A stretch of DNA of 64,000 bases from Henriciella barbarensis (GTDB lineage: Bacteria; Pseudomonadota; Alphaproteobacteria; Caulobacterales; Hyphomonadaceae): NCBI RefSeq assembly GCF_003576345.1, contig NZ_QWGB01000009.1, forward strand, positions 1 through 64,000. The letters run 5' to 3'. Below, piece by piece: positions 75 through 10,344 of this stretch (the first letter of the stretch is position 1; each line of letters begins with the position of its first letter). The notes under the pieces were generated by a model. It was given only the letters and a program-made list of their open reading frames with translations, was not told the origin of the DNA and searched no databases. The position numbers and the translations under genes are program-made.

Positions 75-1286
75 CTAGTGTGCGTGGCCGTCGCCGAAAG
101 CGTCTTTTTCAAGCTGCGCTTTCAGGGTGAAGGCGCCCTCGGCAACGAATGCTTCGTCGGCCTCGACCCCGGAAATGATCTCGGTGTAGCCCCTCGCGCT
201 GTTCCCTGTGCGGACCTCGCGCGGTTCGAACCCGTCATCGGTCGGGACGAAGACGGACATCCTGTCCTCGACGCTGACAATCGCATCGGAGGGAACGCGC
301 ACGACGGGGCGCCCCTCTCCCGTGTCGATCCGCGCCGTTACGAACTGACCGGGCTTCAGCCTGTGTTCGGCATTGTCGACAATGACGCGCGCTGTTGCTG
401 TCCGGGACGCCTCGTTAATGACAGGCAGAACATTTGAAATTGTCCCTTCGGCCAGGACGCGGCCATCCTCCTGCTGGAATGTCACGGTCTGGCCTTCGCT
501 GACCTTGCCGAGATCTTCCTTGTAGACCGCGATATCGGCCCACACGACGCTATCATCAATGATGACAAAGATGGGCGCGCCGCCAGCGGATACGGTTTCT
601 CCAAGCGAAACGCTTCGCTGGATCACTTCTCCGGCCAGGGGCGCCGTGACATAGGCTTGCGCAAGCGACCCGTCCGCAGCCTCATCCAGCATGTCCAGCG
701 TGCCATGACCGATGCCGATGGCATGCAGTCTGTTTTCGGCAGCTTCCCGGCCGGCATTGGCTGCGGCGAATGCCGCACGCGCCGACTGCAGATCGGCCTC
801 GGCGGTGATTTTCTGCTCCCAGAGATTTTCCTCACGCTCAAGCTCGGCTTGCGCGAGGCGCTCGGCGCTCAGGGCATTCAGATAATCGGCCTTTAGGCCG
901 GCAAGTTCACGACTGGTCAGCCGGGCAAGCGTGGCGCCGGCTTTCACGATGTCGCCTTCGCCTGCATAGAGCTGAGCAACGGTGCCCTCGACCTGTGGCG
1001 AGACCCTTGCGACACGGTCCGCATCGAAACGGATCTCGGCCGGCAGTTCCAGCTGGCCCGAAACCGCTCCTGTTTGGGCTGGCCCGGTCCGGATACCGGC
1101 AGCTTCCGCCTCCTCGGCGGTCAGCTCGACATGATCATTGCCGTCTTCTGCATGGCTCTCATGGTCGCCCTCGCCCTCCGGGGCCGTCTGGTCTGCAGGT
1201 GGTGAAGCGGGAGCGTCATTGCCACAGGCGCCAAGATATAGAAGCGCCGAAGAAAGCAGCGCCGCATAGAACAAATTCAGTTTCAT
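75..1286 (-). CDS. Efflux RND transporter periplasmic adaptor, CzcB-like lipoprotein
   Basis: 403 residues. A lipobox (LYLGAC, Cys21) predicts a lipoprotein anchored in the inner membrane and facing the periplasm. An acidic, His-containing stretch around residues 40-55 and a GDGHAH C-terminus could bind metal. The core has the usual adaptor order: barrel-sandwich half (about 95-120), alpha-helical hairpin (about 125-195), second barrel half ('TAPLAGEVIQRSVSLGETV') and membrane-proximal beta domain with 'RVPSDAIV'. Family role: it links a metal-exporting RND pump to an outer-membrane channel. Its start overlaps the stop of the upstream TolC-like gene by 4 bases, so the two are probably translationally coupled. 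Exact metal specificity cannot be read from the sequence; Zn/Cd/Co, Pb or Cu/Ag are possible. Confidence 0.88.
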   Translation of the reverse strand: MKLNLFYAALLSSALLYLGACGNDAPASPPADQTAPEGEGDHESHAEDGNDHVELTAEEAEAAGIRTGPAQTGAVSGQLELPAEIRFDADRVARVSPQVEGTVAQLYAGEGDIVKAGATLARLTSRELAGLKADYLNALSAERLAQAELEREENLWEQKITAEADLQSARAAFAAANAGREAAENRLHAIGIGHGTLDMLDEAADGSLAQAYVTAPLAGEVIQRSVSLGETVSAGGAPIFVIIDDSVVWADIAVYKEDLGKVSEGQTVTFQQEDGRVLAEGTISNVLPVINEASRTATARVIVDNAEHRLKPGQFVTARIDTGEGRPVVRVPSDAIVSVEDRMSVFVPTDDGFEPREVRTGNSARGYTEIISGVEADEAFVAEGAFTLKAQLEKDAFGDGHAH

Positions 1287-2578
1287 TGGATCTCTCCGTC
1301 GAAGGGCGCTGCGCCAATCAGCGCACGCAGCCGCAGGGTTTGTGTAAGGAGCGCCAGCCGGGCATCGATCACGGCGGCGCGGGTTTCAATTAGGCTGCGT
1401 CTTGCATCGAGCGTGGCGGTGAGATCGAACTTGCCAACCCGGTAGCCTTCGGCGGCTGAAGCGTAGGCATCTTCGGCGAAGGGCAGGGCCTCTTCCTCAA
1501 GACGCTGCAATCGGGATTCTGCGCCCCGGATTTGCGCGGCGCGGCTCGCCTGCTCGGCTCTCAGCCTCGCTTCGATGGCCCTGGCATTCAGTTCGGCCCC
1601 TTCGGTGCGGAATTTGGCTGCCCTTGTAGCATCCTGGTTACGGTCAAAGACCGGCAATGGCAGGCTTACCCCCACGAGGAATGCACTGTCTCCGGTGTCC
1701 TCAAAGCGCCGGATGCCAGTAGAGACGGTAATATCCGGCCAGGCGCCGGCCCGCGCGCGGTCTGTCGCTGCCACCTTGGCTTCCGCACCGGCTTGAGCCG
1801 CTTGCAATTTTGGATGTTTAGCACCGTCAGGATCCGGTTCCGTACCGTAGAGCGCCAAGTGTGAAGCCTCTGCTCTCGGCAGGATGAAATCTACCTTGGC
1901 GCTGCCCCAGACCGAGGCGAGCGCCAGTGCACGGGCTTCCGCCTCGCCTTGGGCCGCATCGGCGGTGGCCTGAAGGATCGCTGCTTCGGCTTTTGCACGG
2001 GACAGCTCGGGCGGGGCTGTGGCTCCTGCGTCGACGCGACGCTCAACAATATATGCAAACTCCTCGGCCAGTTTGGCCGATGCATCTGCCACTGCGGCCA
2101 TTTCGATTGCTGCCTGCAAGTCAAGAAAGAGTTCACCCGCAAGCCGCTGGACTTCCAATCGCTGGACGTTGCACTTTGCGCTTGCAAGCGCGGCCTCGGC
2201 CCTTGCAGCTCTCTCGGACAAGCGACGTTTGCCTCCGAGTTGGAAGGTCTGTTCCAGCGCCAGCGTCGTCTCATAGGCATTAAAGCCTTCGAGACCGCCG
2301 GTGCCCGCAAAGTTCTCGGTCTCCAGGGAAACCGCCGGGTTGAGCCGCCGCCCGGCCTGGTCGGCATCGGCCGAAGCGGCTCTCGCTTCCAAGGCGGCAA
2401 TCAGGATTTCGGGCGCGGTATTGCCGGCTCGCGCAACAGCCTGTTCCAGCGTGAGCGGAGGCGTCTGATCATACTCGATCGCCCGGAGCGGGGTAGCACT
2501 GCACCCCTCGGCATAGGCTGCGCCGACCATGGCAGGCAGGCCTATTGCGGCAACAGCGCCACATAGCAGAATTTTCAT
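1283..2578 (-). CDS. TolC-family outer membrane efflux protein, CzcC-like
   Basis: 431 residues with an N-terminal signal peptide (hydrophobic up to about AYA-EG, residue 24). Two long alpha-helical repeats rich in Ala, Glu and Arg are typical of the OEP/TolC fold, e.g. 'LTLEQAVARAGNTAPEILIA' near residue 43 and 'GVSLPLPVFDRNQDATRAA' near residue 290. It would form the outer-membrane exit duct of the tripartite metal efflux complex with the adaptor encoded next and the pump gene at the window edge. The 4-base overlap with the adaptor gene supports one operon, read from the MerR-type promoter near 3,060. Confidence 0.88.
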   Translation of the reverse strand: MKILLCGAVAAIGLPAMVGAAYAEGCSATPLRAIEYDQTPPLTLEQAVARAGNTAPEILIAALEARAASADADQAGRRLNPAVSLETENFAGTGGLEGFNAYETTLALEQTFQLGGKRRLSERAARAEAALASAKCNVQRLEVQRLAGELFLDLQAAIEMAAVADASAKLAEEFAYIVERRVDAGATAPPELSRAKAEAAILQATADAAQGEAEARALALASVWGSAKVDFILPRAEASHLALYGTEPDPDGAKHPKLQAAQAGAEAKVAATDRARAGAWPDITVSTGIRRFEDTGDSAFLVGVSLPLPVFDRNQDATRAAKFRTEGAELNARAIEARLRAEQASRAAQIRGAESRLQRLEEEALPFAEDAYASAAEGYRVGKFDLTATLDARRSLIETRAAVIDARLALLTQTLRLRALIGAAPFDGEIQ

Positions 2579-2649
2579 TTTGGATGGTTTCCTCGTCCAG
2601 ATTCAACGACAGTGCAGCCGGAGCAGCACAAAGTTTTGGTGTCGTCGGT

Positions 2650-3003
2650 CTAGGCGCGGGGAGGTCGGTATAGGCCATCCGGAACGAGGCTCGCGTGGAA
2701 TGCCAAGCCCGGACGAAGCCGCTTAGTCTGAATCTCAGGCTGAATGGCGGCGCCGAAATAGCTCCCGCCGATCATGTGGACATGACAGCTGCCGCAATGA
2801 TGGGCCTTATGTTTGTGTTCGTCATGCGAGGGCTCCTCGCGGGACCCGTCCTGCGAAAGCTCGGCGTCCGCGCACATCTCTGCGCTCTGATCGCCTGTAT
2901 GCATCGTATCCACCGCCGCACTCATGGGCGCAATCACGAAAGCGACCGTCATCAACATGACGATCAATGTTCGCAAGTGCTTTATCATCCGGGGCAGGTT
3001 CAT
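2650..3003 (-). CDS. Small secreted His/Cys-containing protein heading the metal-efflux operon
   Basis: 117 residues. It has a basic N-terminus and a hydrophobic segment (about residues 11-30), consistent with export. The middle is rich in acidic residues and His ('EEPSHDEHKHKAHHCGSCH'), with a CxxC pair. Such short proteins (DUF2946-like in general appearance) are often found ahead of czcCBA or copper-efflux genes, and a periplasmic metal-binding role is plausible but unproven. It is the first gene after the MerR-type promoter at 3,044-3,074 and is about 70 bases from the TolC-like gene on the same strand. A start at the internal Met (2,988) is also possible. Confidence 0.65.
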   Translation of the reverse strand: MNLPRMIKHLRTLIVMLMTVAFVIAPMSAAVDTMHTGDQSAEMCADAELSQDGSREEPSHDEHKHKAHHCGSCHVHMIGGSYFGAAIQPEIQTKRLRPGLAFHASLVPDGLYRPPRA

Positions 3004-3043
3004 ACTGTAAACTTAGATGCGAGTGAATTATTCCAAGCCCAAT

Positions 3044-3074
3044 GCCATAGCACCTCTAGTAACTAGAGGGTCAA
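3044..3074 (-). promoter_or_regulatory. MerR-type promoter/operator of the metal-efflux operon
   Basis: On the minus strand, TTGACC (3,069-3,074) and TATGGC (3,044-3,049) are separated by 19 bases, the long spacer typical of MerR-activated promoters. The spacer carries a perfect dyad, CCTCTAG-TTA-CTAGAGG (3,053-3,069), overlapping the -35 box. It resembles, from memory, the pbr operator of Cupriavidus (a CTATAGTAACTAGAGG-type core). It reads into the gene ending at 2,650 and then the TolC/adaptor genes. A GCCCC...GGGGC hairpin (3,075-3,092) lies just upstream, after the regulator's stop. Confidence 0.75.
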
Positions 3075-3115
3075 GCCCCGTTTTGAAGGGGCACTTTCGA
3101 CCTTTTGCCCGCATG

Positions 3116-3532
3116 CTATTCACGCGGGCATTGCTCATGATGGCCCAGCGCTGCGAGCACTGAACAGTTCGCGACCTTCCCGCCCTCGCAGGCGGTAATC
3201 ATGCGTTTTAGTTCGGCTTCAAGCGCTTCTAGCTGGGTAAGCCTGCGGCGGACCTCGCCCAGCTGGCGGCGGGCGATCTGGTCGACCAGATCGCAATCCC
3301 TGCCTGGGTCAACTTGCAATGAAATCAGTTCCCGGATCGCCGCGACGGGAAAGCCTAGGTCCCTGGCGTGCCGGATGAAGCCAAGACGCTCGACAGCCGC
3401 GTCGCCATACAGTCTTTGCCCGCTCGCGCTCCGCGCCGGCTCTTCAAGTAGGTCAATCGATTCATAGTAGCGTATCGTAGTGACCTTCACCCCGGTCGCC
3501 GCAGACAGTTTGCCGATCGTCATAGAGCTCAT
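3116..3532 (-). CDS. MerR-family heavy-metal regulator, PbrR/CadR-like
   Basis: 138 residues. An N-terminal MerR winged helix ('IGKLSAATGVKVTTIRYYES', about residues 6-25) is followed by a dimerisation coiled coil and a C-terminal metal-binding loop. Cys residues sit where CadR/PbrR/ZntR-type sensors place their ligands: one at the start of the coil ('GRDCDLV'), one in 'TACEGG' and one in 'ANCSVL', plus a further Cys near the C-terminus. Likely inducers are Pb, Cd or Zn; this is inferred from the family. It lies between the two operons that carry MerR-type dyads, 70-80 bases from each, and probably controls both and itself. A start three codons later (3,523) is equally possible. Confidence 0.88.
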   Translation of the reverse strand: MSSMTIGKLSAATGVKVTTIRYYESIDLLEEPARSASGQRLYGDAAVERLGFIRHARDLGFPVAAIRELISLQVDPGRDCDLVDQIARRQLGEVRRRLTQLEALEAELKRMITACEGGKVANCSVLAALGHHEQCPRE

Positions 3533-3545
3533 GCAGTGAAACCTC

Positions 3546-3576
3546 TTGCCTCTACAGTTGCTGTAGACTGTAGGGA
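3546..3576 (+). promoter_or_regulatory. MerR-type promoter/operator of the methyltransferase-CDF operon
   Basis: TTGCCT (3,546-3,551) and TAGGGA (3,571-3,576) are separated by 19 bases. The spacer contains the perfect dyad CTACAG-TTG-CTGTAG (3,552-3,566). This is the architecture of a MerR-activated promoter, here reading rightward into the gene at 3,616. It also lies in the leader region of the divergent merR gene, so the same site could repress that gene. Confidence 0.75.
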
Positions 3577-3615
3577 ATCCTTCCTGAGCCGTAAAGAGAT
3601 CAAGGGAGCACGAAA

Positions 3616-4194
3616 ATGGCTATCAAACCTCAGATACAGTTGCTTGGTACCGCCACGGGGGCGATCTTTTTCGCCGTATTCTTGTGGTCCGCTCTCTTCC
3701 CCACGCGACGGCTCTGGCCACCCCAATCCTATTCCGGTCTGACCGCAGCCATCGTTTGGCTGGGCGACCTTGTCATTCTCGGAGCGGCCCTCTGGCTCGG
3801 AATTTCAGGATGGAGCGACATTGGTCTGTCGGACTGGGTACGCTCCGGTCCGGGGCTCGCCGCCTTCATTCTCGGCAACCTCATAATCTGGCCGGCAATG
3901 ATCCGCTTCGGGTTCAGCCAGAATTTCGGCGCCAAGGGCGAGTTGATTAAGGACGGGCTGTATCGTTATTCGCGTCATCCTCAATATATGGCGATCATCA
4001 TATCGGCCATTGGCTGGGCGCTTCTCAGCGCTTCGAACAACGTCCTTCCGGTTCTAGGGGGCGTCGTCGCGGCCGTGATTGCAGCTCCCTTCGCAGAGGA
4101 GCCCTGGCTCCAGGAAACATATGGCGACCAATACACAGCCTATCGGCGGCGCACCCCGCGCTTCATCGGACTTCCAAAGGAGACAGTTTCATGA
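3616..4194 (+). CDS. Membrane methyltransferase, isoprenylcysteine carboxyl methyltransferase (ICMT)-like
   Basis: 192 residues with about five hydrophobic segments. The C-terminal part carries the ICMT/phospholipid-methyltransferase signature: 'GLYRYSRHPQYMAI' near residue 115 and 'EEPWLQETYGDQYTAYRRR' near residue 165. These form the SAM-binding region of integral-membrane methyltransferases. The natural substrate of bacterial family members is mostly unknown. It is the first gene after a MerR-type promoter, has a good ribosome site (GGGAG about 8 bases upstream) and overlaps the next gene by 4 bases (ATGA), so it belongs with the metal-transport gene that follows. Confidence 0.8.
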   Translation: MAIKPQIQLLGTATGAIFFAVFLWSALFPTRRLWPPQSYSGLTAAIVWLGDLVILGAALWLGISGWSDIGLSDWVRSGPGLAAFILGNLIIWPAMIRFGFSQNFGAKGELIKDGLYRYSRHPQYMAIIISAIGWALLSASNNVLPVLGGVVAAVIAAPFAEEPWLQETYGDQYTAYRRRTPRFIGLPKETVS

Positions 4195-4835
4195 GCGACT
4201 GCTGTGGACAGTCATCCTTTGACGGAACATCGATATCCTATCGGCGCGCGCTTCTTGCCGTCATCGCGATCAACGCCATCATGTTCATCGTCGAGCTCTC
4301 CGCAGGTTACCTCGCCCGTTCCCAGGCCCTCAAGGCGGACGCGCTGGACTTTGGCGGCGATGCGGCAACCTATGCGATCAGCCTTGCCGTAATCGGTATG
4401 AGCGCTTCGGTGCGGGCGAAGGCCTCTCTATTCAAGGCTGGGTCGCTGGCGCTGATCGCGTTGTTCATCTTGGGATCTACCATCGCCCGTGTCTTTTCAG
4501 ACGGGTCCCCGGAGACGATCACCATGAGCATTATCGGCGGTCTGGCTCTAGCGGCCAATTTGCTGAGCGTGCTGATTCTATTGCGCTGGCGCGACGGCGA
4601 CAGCAATGTCCGCTCCGTCTGGCTCTGCTCGCGCAATGATGCGATCGGCAATGTCGGTGTTATCGCCGCAGCCGGCACCGTCGCTTTGACCGGATCGCCG
4701 TGGCCGGACCTGATTGTGGCCGCCCTACTGGCAGGCCTCTTCCTGCGTTCCTCCTGGGCCATCACACTGCAGGCCGTCGGCGAGTTAAGGCAACAGAAAT
4801 CCGGCGCCGGATGTTCGTCGGCAAAAGCCTCATGA
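4191..4835 (+). CDS. Cation diffusion facilitator (CDF) family transporter, short form
   Basis: 214 residues, six predicted membrane segments, no long cytoplasmic C-terminal domain. The TM2 motif 'KADALDFGGDAATYAIS' gives the D-x3-D metal site. The TM5 equivalent 'LCSRNDAIGNVGV' keeps the Asp but has Cys where classical zinc CDFs have His. The N-terminus has a CC pair (MSDCCGQ) that may bind metal. Family role: proton-coupled export of divalent metal from the cytoplasm. The gene overlaps both neighbours by 4 bases, so the three genes are one translationally coupled unit under the MerR-type promoter at 3,546. Confidence 0.82.
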   Translation: MSDCCGQSSFDGTSISYRRALLAVIAINAIMFIVELSAGYLARSQALKADALDFGGDAATYAISLAVIGMSASVRAKASLFKAGSLALIALFILGSTIARVFSDGSPETITMSIIGGLALAANLLSVLILLRWRDGDSNVRSVWLCSRNDAIGNVGVIAAAGTVALTGSPWPDLIVAALLAGLFLRSSWAITLQAVGELRQQKSGAGCSSAKAS

Positions 4836-5287
4836 AGCTACGTATCCCTCCCTTGGTCCAGTTCCTGTTCTGCGCCGGTTTTGGCTGGTTGGCGGCCCGT
4901 CTTTCACCGGGTCTGGATTATGATCCGAGGCTTGCCAGTCACGCAATCGCGGCAGGTCTGGCCCTGGCTGGCGCAGCAATTCTTGCGGCCGCAGTTGTCG
5001 CCTTCCTGACAGCCCGCACGACGGTCAATCCGGTCAGGCCGACCAATGCCGAGCATCTGGTCACCACCGGACTCTATCGCGTCTCGAGAAACCCGATGTA
5101 TCTCGGTTTTGCCCTAGTCCTCACCAGCCTCGCTATCTGGACCGGGAATGGTGCAGCCTTGCTCGCTCCAGTTGTATTTGTCGCCGCAATGACGGTCCTG
5201 CAAATCGAACCGGAGGAAAAGGCTCTCAAGAAAAAGTTCGGCAGTGCTTATGACGTCTATTGCCGTCGAACGCGACGATGGCTGTAG
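4832..5287 (+). CDS. Second ICMT-like membrane methyltransferase
   Basis: 151 residues from the ATG at 4,832, which overlaps the stop of the CDF gene (ATGA); an in-frame start further upstream would lie inside that gene and is rejected. Hydrophobic helices are followed by the family signature 'GLYRVSRNPMYLGFALV' (about residue 84) and a C-terminal 'EEKALKKKFGSAYDVYCRR'. It is related to, but clearly different from, the methyltransferase at 3,616. Members of this family methylate lipid or prenyl-cysteine groups in eukaryotes; substrates in bacteria are open. Context places it in a metal response. Confidence 0.8.
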   Translation: MKLRIPPLVQFLFCAGFGWLAARLSPGLDYDPRLASHAIAAGLALAGAAILAAAVVAFLTARTTVNPVRPTNAEHLVTTGLYRVSRNPMYLGFALVLTSLAIWTGNGAALLAPVVFVAAMTVLQIEPEEKALKKKFGSAYDVYCRRTRRWL

Positions 5288-5288
5288 C

Positions 5289-5580
5289 CTATCGCATTGA
5301 TGGCAGACGGCAGTCTCCGGGATCTTCGAGGGTGTTCACGTTACTGGTGATGTCTAGCCTCGCGCCAGGAATGGTCTCCTTGCGGTCGCTCGTGAACAAT
5401 AGCGCCGTCAGCCCGAACATGTACCCCATGAGATTGAGCGTGAGAGCCGCGCCAGCGATCACAAAAGGAAATCCACCATAGTCGATGGCTGTCTCTATAT
5501 TCGGACTAACGACGGCGAGCAGGATCAGAAGGTACAGGATTCAGCCAACTCCAGCATAGGCTCAAACTTGGCGGGCACAA
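5289..5580 (-). pseudogene. Decayed C-terminal fragment of a membrane transporter, possibly bile acid:sodium symporter/ACR3-like
   Basis: Reading the minus strand from about 5,540 down to the TAG at 5,289 gives an open C-terminus with two hydrophobic helices ('ETAIDYGGFPFVIAGAALTL', then 'MGYMFGLTALLF') and a polar tail. The peptide just upstream, 'HFVPAKFEPMLELAE', is in a different frame, so a frameshift separates the two, and there is no start. The pattern recalls the C-terminal half of BASS-type carriers, but the match is from memory and weak. The fragment is convergent with the methyltransferase operon and suggests past loss of a larger gene here. Confidence 0.4.
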
Positions 5581-5581
5581 A

Positions 5582-5872
5582 ATGCTGGAAATCTGGTGCG
5601 CAAATCACGCAGTCCCGTTTGCGCTTGAACCGATCACGGAATTAAGCGCCAATCGAAGCATGGCTCGATTGAAATCACCTTCTGCACTCATGGCTGATGC
5701 GACCGCCGCGCTTGAAGATGCGCACGCAGCTGCGTCCAACGCCCAGTCGCCGAAAATAGACAACGAACAATTCAAGTCGCTCGCCGAGTGTGCGGTAGCT
5801 AAGTCATTTGAAGCTATTGGCTTGGCGGAGCAGGCCTTGGCCAACCATCAAAAGTCTTCAGAAAGCGGCTGA
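5582..5872 (+). CDS. Hypothetical small protein, doubtful
   Basis: An open frame of 96 residues with no recognised domain. The second half is Ala-rich and probably helical ('ADATAALEDAHAAASNAQS', 'AKSFEAIGLAEQALANHQ'). A later Met at 5,660 would give 70 residues. No convincing ribosome site is seen. It lies in the gap between the decayed transporter and the recombinase trio. It may be a real short accessory gene or chance; the coding-like Ala/Glu helices are the only support. Confidence 0.3.
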   Translation: MLEIWCANHAVPFALEPITELSANRSMARLKSPSALMADATAALEDAHAAASNAQSPKIDNEQFKSLAECAVAKSFEAIGLAEQALANHQKSSESG

Positions 5873-6014
5873 CTTTCGGCTGGACTTCGCGCCCCAACCG
5901 AGCGTGAGTGTAGGTGCGCCGAAAACGAATTTCGGCGCGCCCGCCCCCTTCAGATGGCCGGGCCTTCAGCCAGTGGGAGCGACCGATCGCTCCTCACAAA
6001 CTGAAGGAAAACCA

Positions 6015-6254
6015 ATGACTACAACGACCAAACCGAAAACCCAGACGAAGCCGCTTACAAAACGCGAGCAGCTTGTGAACCTGCTCAACAAGAAAGACGG
6101 TGTCACGGTCAATCAGATCTCCGAAGCCCTGGACTGGCTGCCGCATACAGTGCGCGCGGCACTCACCCGAGTGCGGGCAGAAGATGGAAAGCTGGAAAAG
6201 CTCCCGCCGGCGGACGGAGACCGTTACGCACGCTACCGTCTGGATAAAGCCTGA
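6015..6254 (+). CDS. DUF3489 domain protein (small HTH-like) of the recombinase trio
   Basis: 79 residues. A Lys/Thr-rich N-terminus leads into a short winged-helix-like domain: 'KREQLVNLLNKKDGVTVNQI' followed by 'ALDWLPHTVRAALTRVR'. That arrangement, including the W-x-PHTVR motif, is the DUF3489 signature. The ATG at 6,015 follows GAAGGAAAACCA. The gene shares one base with the DUF2924 gene (TGATG), and the recombinase follows, a gene order I know from alphaproteobacterial genomes. A role as accessory or regulatory DNA-binding factor for the recombinase is inference. Confidence 0.8.
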   Translation: MTTTTKPKTQTKPLTKREQLVNLLNKKDGVTVNQISEALDWLPHTVRAALTRVRAEDGKLEKLPPADGDRYARYRLDKA

Positions 6255-6676
6255 TGGTTGCCTCTCTGCCGACCAATTTGGAGACCCTGCGGGACATGCC
6301 CCGCGGGGAGCTCCTCGTCTTATGGGAGACCGTCAGTACGGAGGCGCCTCCCAATAGAACAAGCACGCCGTTTCTCGCTCGCCTCATTGCGTATGAGGCC
6401 CAGGCTCAGAAGCACGGCGATTTAGGCAAGCGCCTGCAATCCACACTCGAGCGGATCGCCGCGGGTGACCCGCCGCCAGAAGCTGCAAAGATCGCAACGC
6501 AAGGCACCCGGCTCGTGCGGAAGTGGAATGGCGTCCAGCACTCGGTCGACGTGACAGCTGATGGAGTGATCTATCGCGGCAAAACTTTTCGGTCGCTGAG
6601 TGCGGTAGCCCGAGAGATCACTGGCGCGCGCTGGTCCGGGCCTCGCTTCTTTGGCCTGCAGCGTAAGCAGACCTGA
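6254..6676 (+). CDS. DUF2924 domain protein of the recombinase trio
   Basis: 140 residues. The layout matches DUF2924: an N-terminal helical region containing 'PFLARLIAYEAQAQKHGDL', a basic middle 'GTRLVRKWNGVQHSVDV', then 'GVIYRGKTFRSLSAVAREIT' and 'RWSGPRFFGL'. The second half looks like a small nucleic-acid-binding fold. Function is unknown; it is almost always seen directly before a serine recombinase, here 2 bases away, which suggests a recombination-directionality or DNA-binding role (inference). Confidence 0.82.
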   Translation: MVASLPTNLETLRDMPRGELLVLWETVSTEAPPNRTSTPFLARLIAYEAQAQKHGDLGKRLQSTLERIAAGDPPPEAAKIATQGTRLVRKWNGVQHSVDVTADGVIYRGKTFRSLSAVAREITGARWSGPRFFGLQRKQT

Positions 6677-6678
6677 CC

Positions 6679-8346
6679 ATGGCCAAGACGACGATCCGCT
6701 GCGCGATCTACACTCGCAAATCCCATGAAGAGGGCCTCGAGCAGGGCTTCAACTCTCTCGACGCTCAATGGGAGGCCTGCAAGGCATATGTCGAAAGCCA
6801 GAAGCATGAAGGCTGGAAGCTTCTGACGACGCGATACGATGACGGCGGCATCTCAGGTGGACATATGGAGCGGCCGGGCCTGCAAACTCTTCTCGACGAT
6901 ATCGATGCCGGACGGATCGACATGGTGGTCGTCTACAAGATTGACCGGCTCACACGTTCGCTTGCCGACTTTGCGCGCCTGGTCGAGCGGTTCGATAAAT
7001 CAGACTGTTCCTTCGTCTCCGTCACGCAGGCGTTCAATACATCAACGAGCATGGGCCGGCTGACACTCAACGTCCTTCTGTCCTTTGCGCAATTTGAGCG
7101 TGAGGTCACTGCAGAGCGTATCCGAGATAAACTGGCCGCCTCAGCTAAACGAGGGCTCTGGATGGGTGGACTGGCCCCGCTTGGCTACGACCCGCATCCT
7201 GACCCCAACAAGCGGGAGCTGGTCCTGAACAAGGGTGAGGCCGAGACGGTAAGGCGGCTATTTGCGCTTTACGACGAACACCAATGCCTTGGCGCAGTTG
7301 CGCGCGAAGCCAGCCTTGAGGGGATCCGGTCGAAGGAGCGAACGTTCAAAAGTGGCAAATCACTCGGTGGATGTGTGATGTCCCGGGGCGCGATCCATTC
7401 TCTTCTAACCAATCCTGTCTATCGCGGCATGGTACGGCATAAGGAAAATGCCTATCCCTCAACTCATCCTGCGATCATTAATGAGATGCTCTGGTCGCGC
7501 GTGCAGGATCGGTTGAAGGAGAAGAGCGCACGACAACGCGGGCAGCGAGGTCAGAAGACCAACGAAGGATCGCCGCTGACGGGTCGGCTCTATGATGAAA
7601 CGGGTGAGCGCCTCACACCAACCTATGCCAACGCAAAAGGTCGCCGGTGGCGATACTATGTCTCTCGAAGCTTGCTCAACACCAAGAGTGAGGCATCCAG
7701 CGGATGGCGACTGCCCGCCGCCAAACTCGAAAAAGCCGTGACTGAGGCTCTGCGAAACTGGCTGCGGACGGCCCCTCAACATCTGCTCGCCAACCCAGAT
7801 GCAGAATCTTTCGGCAGGCTCTCAGCTGGACTGGCTGAGATTGAGCTTCTGGCATCTTCCGCCACGCCTGCCAGGAGTTTCCGGTTCTTGGAGCGTATTA
7901 AGGTGGGGGTAGGGGAGTTGAGGCTGACCTTAGATGACGAGGCGCTTGCTGATGCCATCAGCATCCCAGCGAGCGAATTTTCAGCGCCAGCTTTAGTTCA
8001 CGCAGAAGACTTTACATTGAAGAAGCGCGGCGTCGAGACCGTGCTCATTCTTGGCGCATCAGCGCCGCAGCGAGATACCACCCTCATCAATGCCATCGCC
8101 AGATCACATGTCTGGATGAAGACTTGGCGGGCAGGCACGTCGCTGGCCGATATCGCCTCAAGCATCGGCTGGACCCCATCGCCGCTGCGCCAGAGAATGA
8201 AGCTGGCTTTTCTTTCGCCGGCGATTGTCAAAGCGATCCTGGATGGACGGCAACCAGCCGATTTAAGTCTTGAGAAAATTCTGCGCTCAAACCTTCCGCT
8301 GGATTGGGATCGCCAAGCTGACAAGTTCGGCTTTGAGCTTCCCTGA
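6679..8346 (+). CDS. Large serine recombinase/site-specific integrase
   Basis: 555 residues. The N-terminal resolvase domain (about 5-150) has the nucleophile in 'IYTRKS' (Ser15), the conserved 'YKIDRLTRSLADF' and the E-helix 'LSFAQFEREVTAERIRDK'. A recombinase domain follows (about 165-300; 'APLGYDPHPD', 'LLTNPVYRGMVRHK'). The zinc-ribbon region ('LTGRLYDETGERLTP') lacks the usual Cys pairs. The C-terminal 200 residues are poorly conserved. It cuts and rejoins DNA through a Ser-phosphate link and probably moved the surrounding island. The stop codon directly abuts the target duplication of the IS66 element, so the gene itself is intact. Confidence 0.9.
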   Translation: MAKTTIRCAIYTRKSHEEGLEQGFNSLDAQWEACKAYVESQKHEGWKLLTTRYDDGGISGGHMERPGLQTLLDDIDAGRIDMVVVYKIDRLTRSLADFARLVERFDKSDCSFVSVTQAFNTSTSMGRLTLNVLLSFAQFEREVTAERIRDKLAASAKRGLWMGGLAPLGYDPHPDPNKRELVLNKGEAETVRRLFALYDEHQCLGAVAREASLEGIRSKERTFKSGKSLGGCVMSRGAIHSLLTNPVYRGMVRHKENAYPSTHPAIINEMLWSRVQDRLKEKSARQRGQRGQKTNEGSPLTGRLYDETGERLTPTYANAKGRRWRYYVSRSLLNTKSEASSGWRLPAAKLEKAVTEALRNWLRTAPQHLLANPDAESFGRLSAGLAEIELLASSATPARSFRFLERIKVGVGELRLTLDDEALADAISIPASEFSAPALVHAEDFTLKKRGVETVLILGASAPQRDTTLINAIARSHVWMKTWRAGTSLADIASSIGWTPSPLRQRMKLAFLSPAIVKAILDGRQPADLSLEKILRSNLPLDWDRQADKFGFELP

Positions 8347-8369: not shown

Positions 8370-9914
8370 TTACACGTCCGCGCGTGAAGCCGCCCAGTTC
8401 CACGGTAGCAGATCGTCGATCCGGTTCATCGGATGGCCCTGACTGAGACGCTCGAGAACATCACTCAGATAAGCATGCGGCTCGACATCATTGAGCTTTG
8501 CGGTTGTCAGCAGAGACGCGATGACGGCCCATCTCTGTGCCCCGCCTTCCGAGCCGGCGAACAGGTGGTTCTTGCGTCCCAGCGCCACCGGACGGATAGC
8601 GCGCTCGACGGTGTTCGTGTCGAGTTCGATCCGACCATCGTCGAGGAACCGGCTGAGCTCATCCCAGCGGGCAAGCGCATAGCGGATCGCATCGCCCAGC
8701 CCGCTGCGCGGCGGGATACGCTGGAGTTCGGTTTCCAGCCAGGCTTTCATCGCGCGGACCAGCGGGCGGGATTTCCGGGCCCGCACGATCCGACGCTTGT
8801 TCGCGCTCTGCCCACGGATCGTGGCGTCGATAGCATAGAGCTCGGCGATCCGCTGCAACGCTTCGGCCGCGATCGGTGAGCCTGTGGCCTGGTGCACCTC
8901 GTAGAACTTGCGCCGCGCATGCGCCCAGCAGGCCGCCAGAGTAATATCCCCACCTGTGGTCAGCCGCTCGAACCCGGCATAGCCATCGACCTGCAACACA
9001 CCGCTGAAGTCTTTCAGATGGGTTTCCGGGCGTTCGGCGCGCCGGTCAGGGCTGTAGATATAGACAGCAGCCGGCGGACCGGGTCCATTCCACGGTCGAT
9101 CATCGCGGGCATAAACCCAGAGCCGACCTGTTCGGGTGCGCCCGCGGCCCGGATCGAGCACAGGCAGCGGCGTGTCATCGGCGAACAGCATGTTCGAGCT
9201 GAAGACATGGTTTGCGAGCCGCTCATGCAGGGCTTCCAGCCACCAGCTGGCCCCGCCCACCCAGTTGGCAAGCGTTGACCGGTTCAGCTTCACACCCTGG
9301 CGGGCAAAGATCTGTGACTGGCGGTAGAGCGGCAGGTGATCGCAGTACTTGCTGACGATGACATGCGCGAGCAGGCCTGGCGTAGCGAGCCCCTTCGCGA
9401 TCGGACGTTCCGGGGCTGATCCCTGGTGGATCTTCCCGCAGCCCCGGCAGCCATAGCGCGGGCGCTTGATCCGCAGGACACGCAGCTGCGCCGGAACATG
9501 GTCCAGCATCTCGCTGACCGTCTCGCCGATGAAGTGCAGCGCCCCGCCGCAGCATGGACAGGTGCTGGTCTCAGTGTCGACCGCCACATCCTCGCGCGGA
9601 AGATGGTCCGGCAGGCTGAACGCGCGCGTGCGGGCTGGACGATCGCCAGTCTCGACAAGTGTATCTGGCGATGCCGCTTCAAGCCGCGCCACATCACTGT
9701 CCAGATCCTCCAGGCCAAGCTGGAGCTGGCCGGGATCAAGTCCCTCGGCCCGGCGGCCGAACTGGCTGCGCTGAAGCGTCTTCACCATCTGGCGCAGCCG
9801 CTCGATTTCTGCTCGTGCTTCAGCGCGCTCGCTATGACGTGCCGCAGCCATGTCCCGGATCATGCGATGCAGCACATCCACGTCTTCAGGCAGGGCGGTG
9901 AGGTCAAGCTCCAT
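8370..9914 (-). CDS. tnpC: IS66 family transposase (TnpC)
   Basis: 514 residues, full length for the family. Order: N-terminal Leu-zipper-like helix (about 15-55), zinc-finger region with CPCCGG near residue 120 and 'YGCRGCGKIHQG', then the DDE catalytic domain ('LFADDTPLPVLDPG', 'LQVDGYAGF', 'CWAHARRKF', 'NTVERAIRPVALGRKNHLFA') and the IS66 C-terminal segment. The stop codon falls within the left terminal region of the element, as is common for this family. Confidence 0.93.
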   Translation of the reverse strand: MELDLTALPEDVDVLHRMIRDMAAARHSERAEARAEIERLRQMVKTLQRSQFGRRAEGLDPGQLQLGLEDLDSDVARLEAASPDTLVETGDRPARTRAFSLPDHLPREDVAVDTETSTCPCCGGALHFIGETVSEMLDHVPAQLRVLRIKRPRYGCRGCGKIHQGSAPERPIAKGLATPGLLAHVIVSKYCDHLPLYRQSQIFARQGVKLNRSTLANWVGGASWWLEALHERLANHVFSSNMLFADDTPLPVLDPGRGRTRTGRLWVYARDDRPWNGPGPPAAVYIYSPDRRAERPETHLKDFSGVLQVDGYAGFERLTTGGDITLAACWAHARRKFYEVHQATGSPIAAEALQRIAELYAIDATIRGQSANKRRIVRARKSRPLVRAMKAWLETELQRIPPRSGLGDAIRYALARWDELSRFLDDGRIELDTNTVERAIRPVALGRKNHLFAGSEGGAQRWAVIASLLTTAKLNDVEPHAYLSDVLERLSQGHPMNRIDDLLPWNWAASRADV

Positions 9915-9990
9915 ACCACGGAGTTTACGCTGGAATCAGCGCGTTCCGCACAGCTTTCTGCGGCCTGATTCAATCGGTCGCATCAGCCCC

Positions 9991-10344
9991 TCAACCTGCT
10001 CGGGCGGGACGCCATCGCTCGTCCGGGGATCGCCAGTCGATGCCATCGATCAGCATCGATAACTGGTCCGATGTCAGGACAATCGACTTGCCCGGCTCAT
10101 TCTCCGATGGCCAGAGGAAGGCGCCATGCTCGAGCCGCTTGGTGAACAGGCAGAGCCCGGTACCGTCCCAATAGACAATCTTGATCAGGTTCGCCTTGCG
10201 GCCGCGGAACACGAAGAGATGACCTGTGAACGGATCGCGCTTCAGAACCTCCTGAACCATCACCGACAAGCCATCGATCCCCTTGCGCATGTCGGTGTGG
10301 CCAACCGCCAGGTGAACGCGCACACCTTCTGGAAGCAAGGTCAT
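9991..10344 (-). CDS. tnpB: IS66 accessory protein TnpB
   Basis: 117 residues with the family hallmarks 'TDMRKGIDGLSVMVQ', 'HLFVFRGRKANLIKIVYWDG' and 'GLCLFTKRLEHGAFLWP'. Required for IS66 transposition in studied elements; biochemical role unclear. The start overlaps the tnpA stop by 4 bases (translational coupling), while 76 bases separate it from tnpC. Confidence 0.92.
   Translation of the reverse strand: MTLLPEGVRVHLAVGHTDMRKGIDGLSVMVQEVLKRDPFTGHLFVFRGRKANLIKIVYWDGTGLCLFTKRLEHGAFLWPSENEPGKSIVLTSDQLSMLIDGIDWRSPDERWRPARAG

Follow-up and report, generated by a model that had tools for sequence, protein, structure and literature searches.

Operon structure and the question it raises

Why should an operon for metal export encode two membrane methyltransferases? 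The question is raised by a 64,000-nucleotide stretch of Henriciella barbarensis DNA (contig NZ_QWGB01000009.1, positions 1 to 64,000; hereafter the window), in which the plus strand at 3616-5287 holds, in this order, a membrane methyltransferase (MT1), a cation diffusion facilitator (CDF) and a second membrane methyltransferase (MT2), with a MerR-type regulator encoded divergently on the minus strand. We confirmed this order, the strands and the span, together with two features named in the original prediction for this DNA: the three genes overlap by four bases (ATGA at both junctions, 4191-4194 being common to MT1 and CDF and 4832-4835 to CDF and MT2), and they follow a MerR-type promoter (TTGCCT-19 bp-TAGGGA with a dyad, 3546-3576; Table 1). 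The mechanical open reading frame (ORF) of the third gene opens at GTG 4700; we set the start of MT2 at ATG 4832 because the lengths of its relatives and the four-base overlap both fit there. The further claim, of a genetic link between membrane methyltransferases and metal export, both under a metal-type MerR, was borne out in many genera and for several kinds of exporter, as described in the next section. As to function, our best guess, to which we assign a rough probability of 0.35, is that metal-induced membrane methyltransferases act on a membrane-embedded substrate, perhaps lipid head groups, alongside export by the CDF.

Coupling of membrane methyltransferases to metal export

Relatives of MT1 were collected with a nine-seed alignment, A1 (the window's own MT1, six others beside a CDF and two not), and the best 80 of the 302 relatives in the genome collection were kept as 79 loci, which include near-copies and hold 66 distinct MT1s. 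Genes at these loci, and at the CDF and class-level loci described below (all loci being numbered with the prefix L), were labelled with profiles built in this analysis, Pfam being run on a few only. A CDF lies on the same strand within 1 kb at 70 of the 79 MT1 loci (57 of the 66 distinct MT1s), and a MerR lies within 3 kb, also at 70 of the 79. Taking a possible in-frame start at the CDF stop codon as a potential four-base overlap (the starts are unmapped), we found one in 54 of 67 CDF-MT1 pairs (47 ATGA, 4 GTGA and 3 TTGA). From the side of the exporter, 91 CDF loci were examined among 150 listed, working down from the head of the list and passing over some; a membrane methyltransferase was present within 300 bp at 33 of these, on the same strand in 33 of 33 (28 downstream, 3 upstream and 2 both), and a MerR within 1.5 kb at 83. 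Of the 150 methyltransferase matches listed from whole genomes in the order, 36 fall no more than 2.5 kb from a CDF match that is also listed, as compared with 0.24 expected by chance, even though cassettes carrying a truncated MT1 (see below) count as misses here, their CDF being too distant for the cut-off. Chance adjacency of the CDF and the methyltransferase is ruled out by this excess together with the strand agreement, the 70 of 79 MT1 loci and the overlap counts. The methyltransferases within 1 kb of a CDF form four clusters at 1e-18 (95, 20, 7 and 1 sequences), and relatives of MT1 were found on 75 plasmid records.

In some marine Alphaproteobacteria the pairing is frequent, without being universal. 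When 299 genomes from across the phylum were searched with the MT1 alignment, only 3, including that of the window, matched at E <= 1e-25, so MT1 in the strict sense has a narrow distribution.

Gene orders and exporter partners

The expectation that the MT1-CDF-MT2 order would be found beyond this strain held in part. The exact order is rare, being confined to the window and Henriciella-titled metagenome-assembled genomes (MAGs): it is complete in L104 and L106 (also numbered L009), and in L105 (also L008) the contig ends inside the CDF. What recurs widely is the pairing, in other orders. MT2-CDF-MT1 is found on a conjugative Sulfitobacter plasmid (L096), in a Rhizobiaceae MAG (L125) and in a Flavimaricola MAG (L182); CDF-MT2-MT1 is found in L160 (also L010); and CDF-MT2 is followed by a member of a separate PEMT family in L026, L027, L028-L030 and L033 (near-copies), L031, L032 and L198, this family being split off by two branches, one on each side of a midpoint root, whose lengths are 4.0 and 2.7 changes per column. 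In roseobacters a transglutaminase-like gene precedes CDF-MT1.

The exporter also varies. MT1 is partnered in L112 by a long CDF with a ZT_dimer domain, and a ZntA-like heavy-metal P-type ATPase accompanies MerR in L157 (with MT1) and L181 (with MT2-MT1); both ATPases pass the model for heavy-metal ATPases in general, and the Zn/Cd/Pb models give them their best scores, though below the cut-offs. MerR and MT1 occur without a labelled exporter in L133, L137 and L151. On the MT1 tree the type of partner requires 12 changes, and for the short-CDF label at least 3 are needed even if only well-supported branches are counted. A CDF-specific partner role for MT1 is ruled out, since MT1 changes exporters. 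Because MT1 accompanies different exporters, or MerR alone, we regard it as a separate, presumably metal-induced, membrane enzyme rather than a subunit or modifier of the exporter.

Presence and absence of MT1

Two loci of the same genus (L185 and L186, with a CDF 98% identical) match the window at 2600-3573 and again at 4171-6000, without 3574-4170. As judged from these alignments, MT1 behaves as a presence/absence cassette within the genus, situated between the shared promoter and the CDF ribosome-binding site; the last MT1 codons coincide with the CDF leader of L185 and L186. MT1 is likewise missing from L187 and L189. In 12 cassettes from several genera (L013-L024) a truncated MT1 without the SAM-binding half (SAM, S-adenosylmethionine) stands ahead of a distant CDF (32%); MerR is present in 11 of the 12 and is 81-82% identical to the window MerR, and the truncated MT1 of L015 has no Pfam match.

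Family and fold of MT1 and MT2

The original prediction described both methyltransferases as ICMT-like, a label that survives in a weakened form. Both pass the Pfam ICMT model (MT1 31.5 and MT2 25.3 bits, cut-off 24), but PEMT scores higher (52.8 and 49.7 bits, cut-off 25) and is the best-scoring Pfam model for each; DUF1295 is passed by both as well. The cut-off of 160 bits of the curated ICMT model, NF040696, was not reached (44.8 and 50.3 bits), and therefore the likeness to ICMT holds at superfamily level only. The same was found for the curated MddA model (20.0 and 23.7 bits, cut-off 270) and for the model of the Leptospira lipid A phosphate methyltransferase, LmtA (15.5 and 23.1 bits, cut-off 325), neither of which was reached. 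On these curated cut-offs, true ICMT, MddA and LmtA identities are rejected for MT1 and MT2.

In the MT1 alignment (A3, from which L118 was left out because of an in-frame stop), R120, P122, E161, E162, G170 and Y176 are invariant in 40 of 40 rows, as is an N-terminal signature of W24 S25, R32 and W34 P35 P36; the invariant residues of MT2, in 8 of 8 rows, are R86, N87, Y90, E128, E129, Y143 and R149. We take the C-terminal SAM-binding signature of the superfamily to be R-[HN]-P, EE, Y/FG, Y and R, and on the strength of these scores and alignments MT1 and MT2 are both predicted to be members of the PEMT/ICMT membrane methyltransferase superfamily, with this signature intact. The nearest named relatives of MT1 come from Henriciella MAGs (92 and 90% MT1 identity). 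AlphaFold models were obtained with pLDDT (predicted local distance difference test) values of 92.5 for MT1 and 83.3 for MT2. Foldseek returned weak matches only, placing steroid 5-alpha-reductase first and Ma-ICMT third for MT1, and Ma-ICMT (4a2n) and eukaryotic ICMT (5v7p/5vg9) first for MT2; with matches this weak, and a steroid reductase leading for MT1, the folds do not name a substrate.

The exporter and the sensor

The window CDF passes Pfam Cation_efflux (54.6 bits, cut-off 26.6) and falls slightly under the cut-off of the TIGR01297 CDF superfamily model (75.3 against 82.35 bits). The C-terminal cytoplasmic dimerisation domain, ZT_dimer, has no Pfam match in the window CDF and is present in the long CDF of L112. 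The predicted metal site of the window CDF comprises DxxxD in the second transmembrane helix and CxxxD in the fifth, with Cys146 at the place of a His in long CDFs (HxxxD in that of L112); CSxND is found in all 143 CDF ORFs of at least 260 bits (120 distinct), and a CC motif near the N-terminus in the window CDF and in 94 of those 143. A phmmer search of the window CDF against PDB sequences returned nothing at E <= 0.1. MmCDF3 of Maricaulis maris is likewise a CDF without a cytoplasmic domain.

The solved relatives of the window MerR are CadR, MerR, CueR and ZntR. Among 146 MerRs of at least 165 bits (the window MerR and those from L104-L182 and L185-L273), C80 and C123 are conserved in all 146, C115 in 138 and C135 in 139; C80 occupies the position of the first ligand in divalent-metal sensors. 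Of 164 distinct MerR upstream regions drawn from loci L104-L182 and L185-L273, 102 have a spacer of 19 or 20 bp with a dyad of at least 6, and 6 have a spacer of 16-18 bp; the former layout turned up 1, 0 and 2 times when the 164 regions were mononucleotide-shuffled in three rounds. The metal-binding cysteines and the 19-20-bp-spacer promoter point to a metal sensor of the CadR/PbrR/ZntR kind. No single-metal model was reached (score/cut-off: Zn(II) 105.5/143, Cd/Pb 102.2/151.45, Cu(I) 98.7/147.4, mercury 93/150.85).

Relation to known systems

Methyltransferases of this superfamily beside metal exporters are known already, and the MerR-methyltransferase-CDF unit is a further variant, real and recurrent. 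In the open-access literature we found no publication on a MerR-methyltransferase-CDF(-methyltransferase) unit. The original prediction went too far in denying lipid or prenyl methylation a recognised role in metal resistance, for the literature already contains both CzcN/NccN and merR-copA-ICMT clusters. In the czc and ncc determinants of Cupriavidus, CzcN and NccN are assigned to the superfamily (PMC7563307). CzcN (from pMOL30) matches our MT1 profile with 55 bits (5.9e-19) and our MT2 profile with 51 bits (9.8e-18), and has PEMT as its best Pfam model, also matching ICMT; with the LmtA model it scores 54.6 bits, far under the cut-off given above. CzcN and NccN resemble MT1 and MT2 in being membrane PEMT/ICMT-superfamily proteins beside divalent-metal efflux genes. 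They differ in that the partner is a resistance-nodulation-division system with CzcRS rather than MerR-CDF (a CDF gene lies further along on pMOL30), and in that the methyltransferase there is a single copy, whereas the window operon has two; CzcN is also under our 100-bit line for both MT families.

Clusters of merR, copA, cupredoxin, DUF2933 and isoprenylcysteine methyltransferase genes are described in Alteromonas and others, often on islands or plasmids (PMC8478169). By that description they bring together, as the window does, a MerR, a metal exporter and an ICMT-family membrane methyltransferase, but the exporter is a copper P-type ATPase, there is one methyltransferase, and their cupredoxin and DUF2933 genes have no counterpart in the window operon. 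In the arsR-czcD-STE14-ompR operon of Cellulomonas the CDF gene precedes one for a putative isoprenylcysteine methyltransferase (PMC8832061); this operon differs, again by description, in its ArsR regulator and single methyltransferase. The genome of the window itself carries a second copy (L002, G000:C10:287573-288187), with a divergent MerR and a short CDF 70% identical to that of the window, and differing in that no methyltransferase was found within 1.5 kb on each side.

Function of the methyltransferases

The gene order, the type of promoter, the conserved SAM-binding residues and the recurrent pairing with several exporters are read directly from the DNA; from there we propose the following model. 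A MerR sensor of a divalent metal (probably of Zn/Cd/Pb type) would, when bound to metal, open the promoter, giving what is probably one mRNA for a CDF without a cytoplasmic domain and for two SAM-dependent membrane methyltransferases. The CDF, to judge from its family, would move metal out of the cytoplasm, and the methyltransferases, if active, would most likely methylate a membrane-embedded substrate, perhaps the phosphate or amine of lipid head groups, such that the envelope might then bind less of the metal arriving on its outer side. A lipid substrate is suggested because MT1, MT2 and CzcN all score highest in Pfam with PEMT and because there is a weak likeness to LmtA. Capping of a lipid phosphate by an enzyme of this sort is exemplified by the Leptospira lipid A phosphate methyltransferase. 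A literature search for metal binding by amine head groups gave nothing usable among the matches listed. One version of the model was put forward in the original prediction, namely that methylation changes the lipids around the transporter. This is possible; MT1 is also found beside ZntA-like ATPases, or beside no partner but MerR, so that an action on the surroundings of the CDF is not required of it.

Several results weigh against our proposal. The methyltransferase is dispensable, given that 58 of the 91 CDF loci have none within 300 bp and that, at class level, only 1 of the 29 best CDF loci has one; also at class level, only 1 of 29 MT2 relatives has a CDF within the span of at most 1.5 kb seen on each side. 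Because the A1 seeds were partly chosen beside a CDF, the count of 70 in 79 loci describes the MT1 family and is not an unbiased sample. The type of partner is mostly inherited on the MT1 tree (12 changes against a shuffled mean of 29.9), and four Robiginitomaculum loci (L123, L143, L153 and L174) have MT1 without MerR or CDF. Neither the MT1 nor the MT2 model has a Foldseek match at E <= 0.001. Finally, C. metallidurans czcN was hardly expressed and showed no metal response in one study (PMC9045368), as against two others in which it is listed as up-regulated (PMC11647585, PMC7563307).

Were the substrate a lipid, these operons would add a membrane-remodelling arm to the export, sequestration and reduction by which metals are resisted. 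A wider proposal, which we regard as tentative and rather unlikely, is that metal-induced head-group remodelling is a general arm of bacterial (perhaps also archaeal) metal defence, CzcN/NccN and the copA-linked ICMTs included, with intramembrane methyltransferases capping metal-binding lipid groups beside exporters of soft divalent metals.

Of the alternatives to a lipid substrate, the one that survives best, while still unlikely, is that the methyltransferases act, as MddA does, on a small hydrophobic or thiol compound, removing metal-binding or reactive thiols. MddA is a methanethiol S-methyltransferase of the same superfamily; many MT1 hosts are marine roseobacters, organisms that handle methylated sulfur, and MT1 and MT2 do match the MddA model weakly. 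Those matches, however, lie far under the cut-off and below the PEMT and ICMT scores, and thiol removal would be expected to take away metal buffers. To a role in tuning metal sensing or the working of the exporter, as opposed to that of a resistance enzyme, we give slightly less credence again. It is for CzcN that such a role has been indicated: a czcN homolog is described with a role in regulating the czc operon (PMC3056050), czcN is listed with '(regulation)' (PMC12029693), and NccN is listed, in a Mesorhizobium study, as affecting metal specificity (PMC5315480), and CzcN matches the profiles of both MT1 and MT2. The function of CzcN is nonetheless given as unknown in two papers (PMC9045368, PMC12193353), a MerR is already in place to regulate the operons considered here, and MT1 occurs with MerR where no exporter is close by.

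We consider it improbable that mobile metal-resistance cassettes carry the methyltransferase genes as passengers, of little weight for tolerance. The presence or absence of MT1 at one site between near-identical relatives, the persistence of a truncated MT1 without its SAM-binding half in the 12 cassettes and the 75 plasmid records would all fit passengers; several methyltransferase families beside several exporters, with strand agreement in all 33 cases and a potential four-base overlap in 54 of 67 pairs, are unlike hitchhiking. More improbable still is modification of the exporter, or of another membrane protein, by carboxyl or cysteine methylation. ICMT proper methylates a C-terminal cysteine, the window CDF has cysteines near both ends, and the gene overlaps mean that translation may be coupled, but MT1 accompanies unrelated exporters (two kinds of CDF and P-type ATPases) or none, and the curated ICMT cut-off is missed by MT1 and MT2. 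That the enzymes methylate the metal, making it volatile or extrudable, an idea which the original prediction had also entertained, is very improbable: the Cys in the CDF metal site would suit a soft metal, and methylation by SAM works for As, Se and Te and is conceivable for Pb(II) and Sn(II), but Zn2+, Cd2+ and Hg2+ are unable to accept the CH3+ that SAM donates, and the models closest to the ATPase partners are those for Zn/Cd/Pb.

Whatever the substrate, the CzcN superfamily here is a tightly coupled and repeatedly recruited partner of differing metal exporters. The old question of CzcN function thereby becomes testable in a small operon, for which the near-identical loci with and without MT1 offer a natural comparison.

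Associated genes and neighbourhood

At six of the seven loci of one cluster of CDF-associated methyltransferases, a soluble class I SAM methyltransferase lies between the membrane methyltransferase and the CDF (L246, L247, L254, L255, L261 and L263; Pfam was run on L247 only), which adds a methyltransferase of another, unrelated kind to a metal operon. The roseobacter transglutaminase-core protein has 256 residues in L136 (3596-4363) and L112 (3300-4067); a transglutaminase gene is also annotated on plasmids L098, L099, L102, L279 and L280, and L,D-transpeptidase genes are close by in the first three of these. The Robiginitomaculum branch of MT1 adjoins an apparent parE (identified by eye), which may indicate a use outside metal operons. 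Distant MT1-like methyltransferases (33-41% identity) are encoded on the haloarchaeal plasmids L277, L278 and L281. No metal gene was seen in the neighbourhood of L281; in L277 and L278 (two of the three neighbourhoods opened) the gene adjoins a winged-helix regulator and annotated iron transporters, and that of L278 also includes a multicopper oxidase, a metal transporter and a plastocyanin.

Table 1. Coordinates of the operon, its regulator and the adjoining genes in the window
Feature	Position	Strand	Basis or remark
MerR-family metal sensor/regulator (predicted), 138 aa	3116..3532	-	Pfam MerR_1 and MerR-DNA-bind; divergent from operon
MerR-type promoter, TTGCCT / 19-bp spacer / TAGGGA	3546..3576	+	Spacer holds CTACAG/CTGTAG dyad
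MT1, predicted membrane methyltransferase, PEMT/ICMT superfamily, 192 aa	3616..4194	+	Pfam, alignment, AlphaFold model
CDF exporter (predicted), 214 aa, no C-terminal cytoplasmic domain match	4191..4835	+	Pfam Cation_efflux
MT2, predicted membrane methyltransferase, PEMT/ICMT superfamily, 151 aa	4832..5287	+	Pfam, lengths of relatives, AlphaFold model
CzcB-like gene	75-1286	-	Pfam/NCBIfam
CzcC-like gene	1283-2578	-	Pfam/NCBIfam
Small DUF2946 protein gene	2650-3003	-	Pfam/NCBIfam

The CzcC-CzcB-like pair (75-2578) adjoins the unit on the opposite strand, reads away from it and reaches the contig start; the window and the contig open just beyond CzcB, so that any CzcA there falls outside. On the 3' side of MT2 (5808-8346 and 8370-10344) lie genes for DUF3489, DUF2924 and a serine recombinase and then an IS66 element, and the operon therefore borders mobile DNA.

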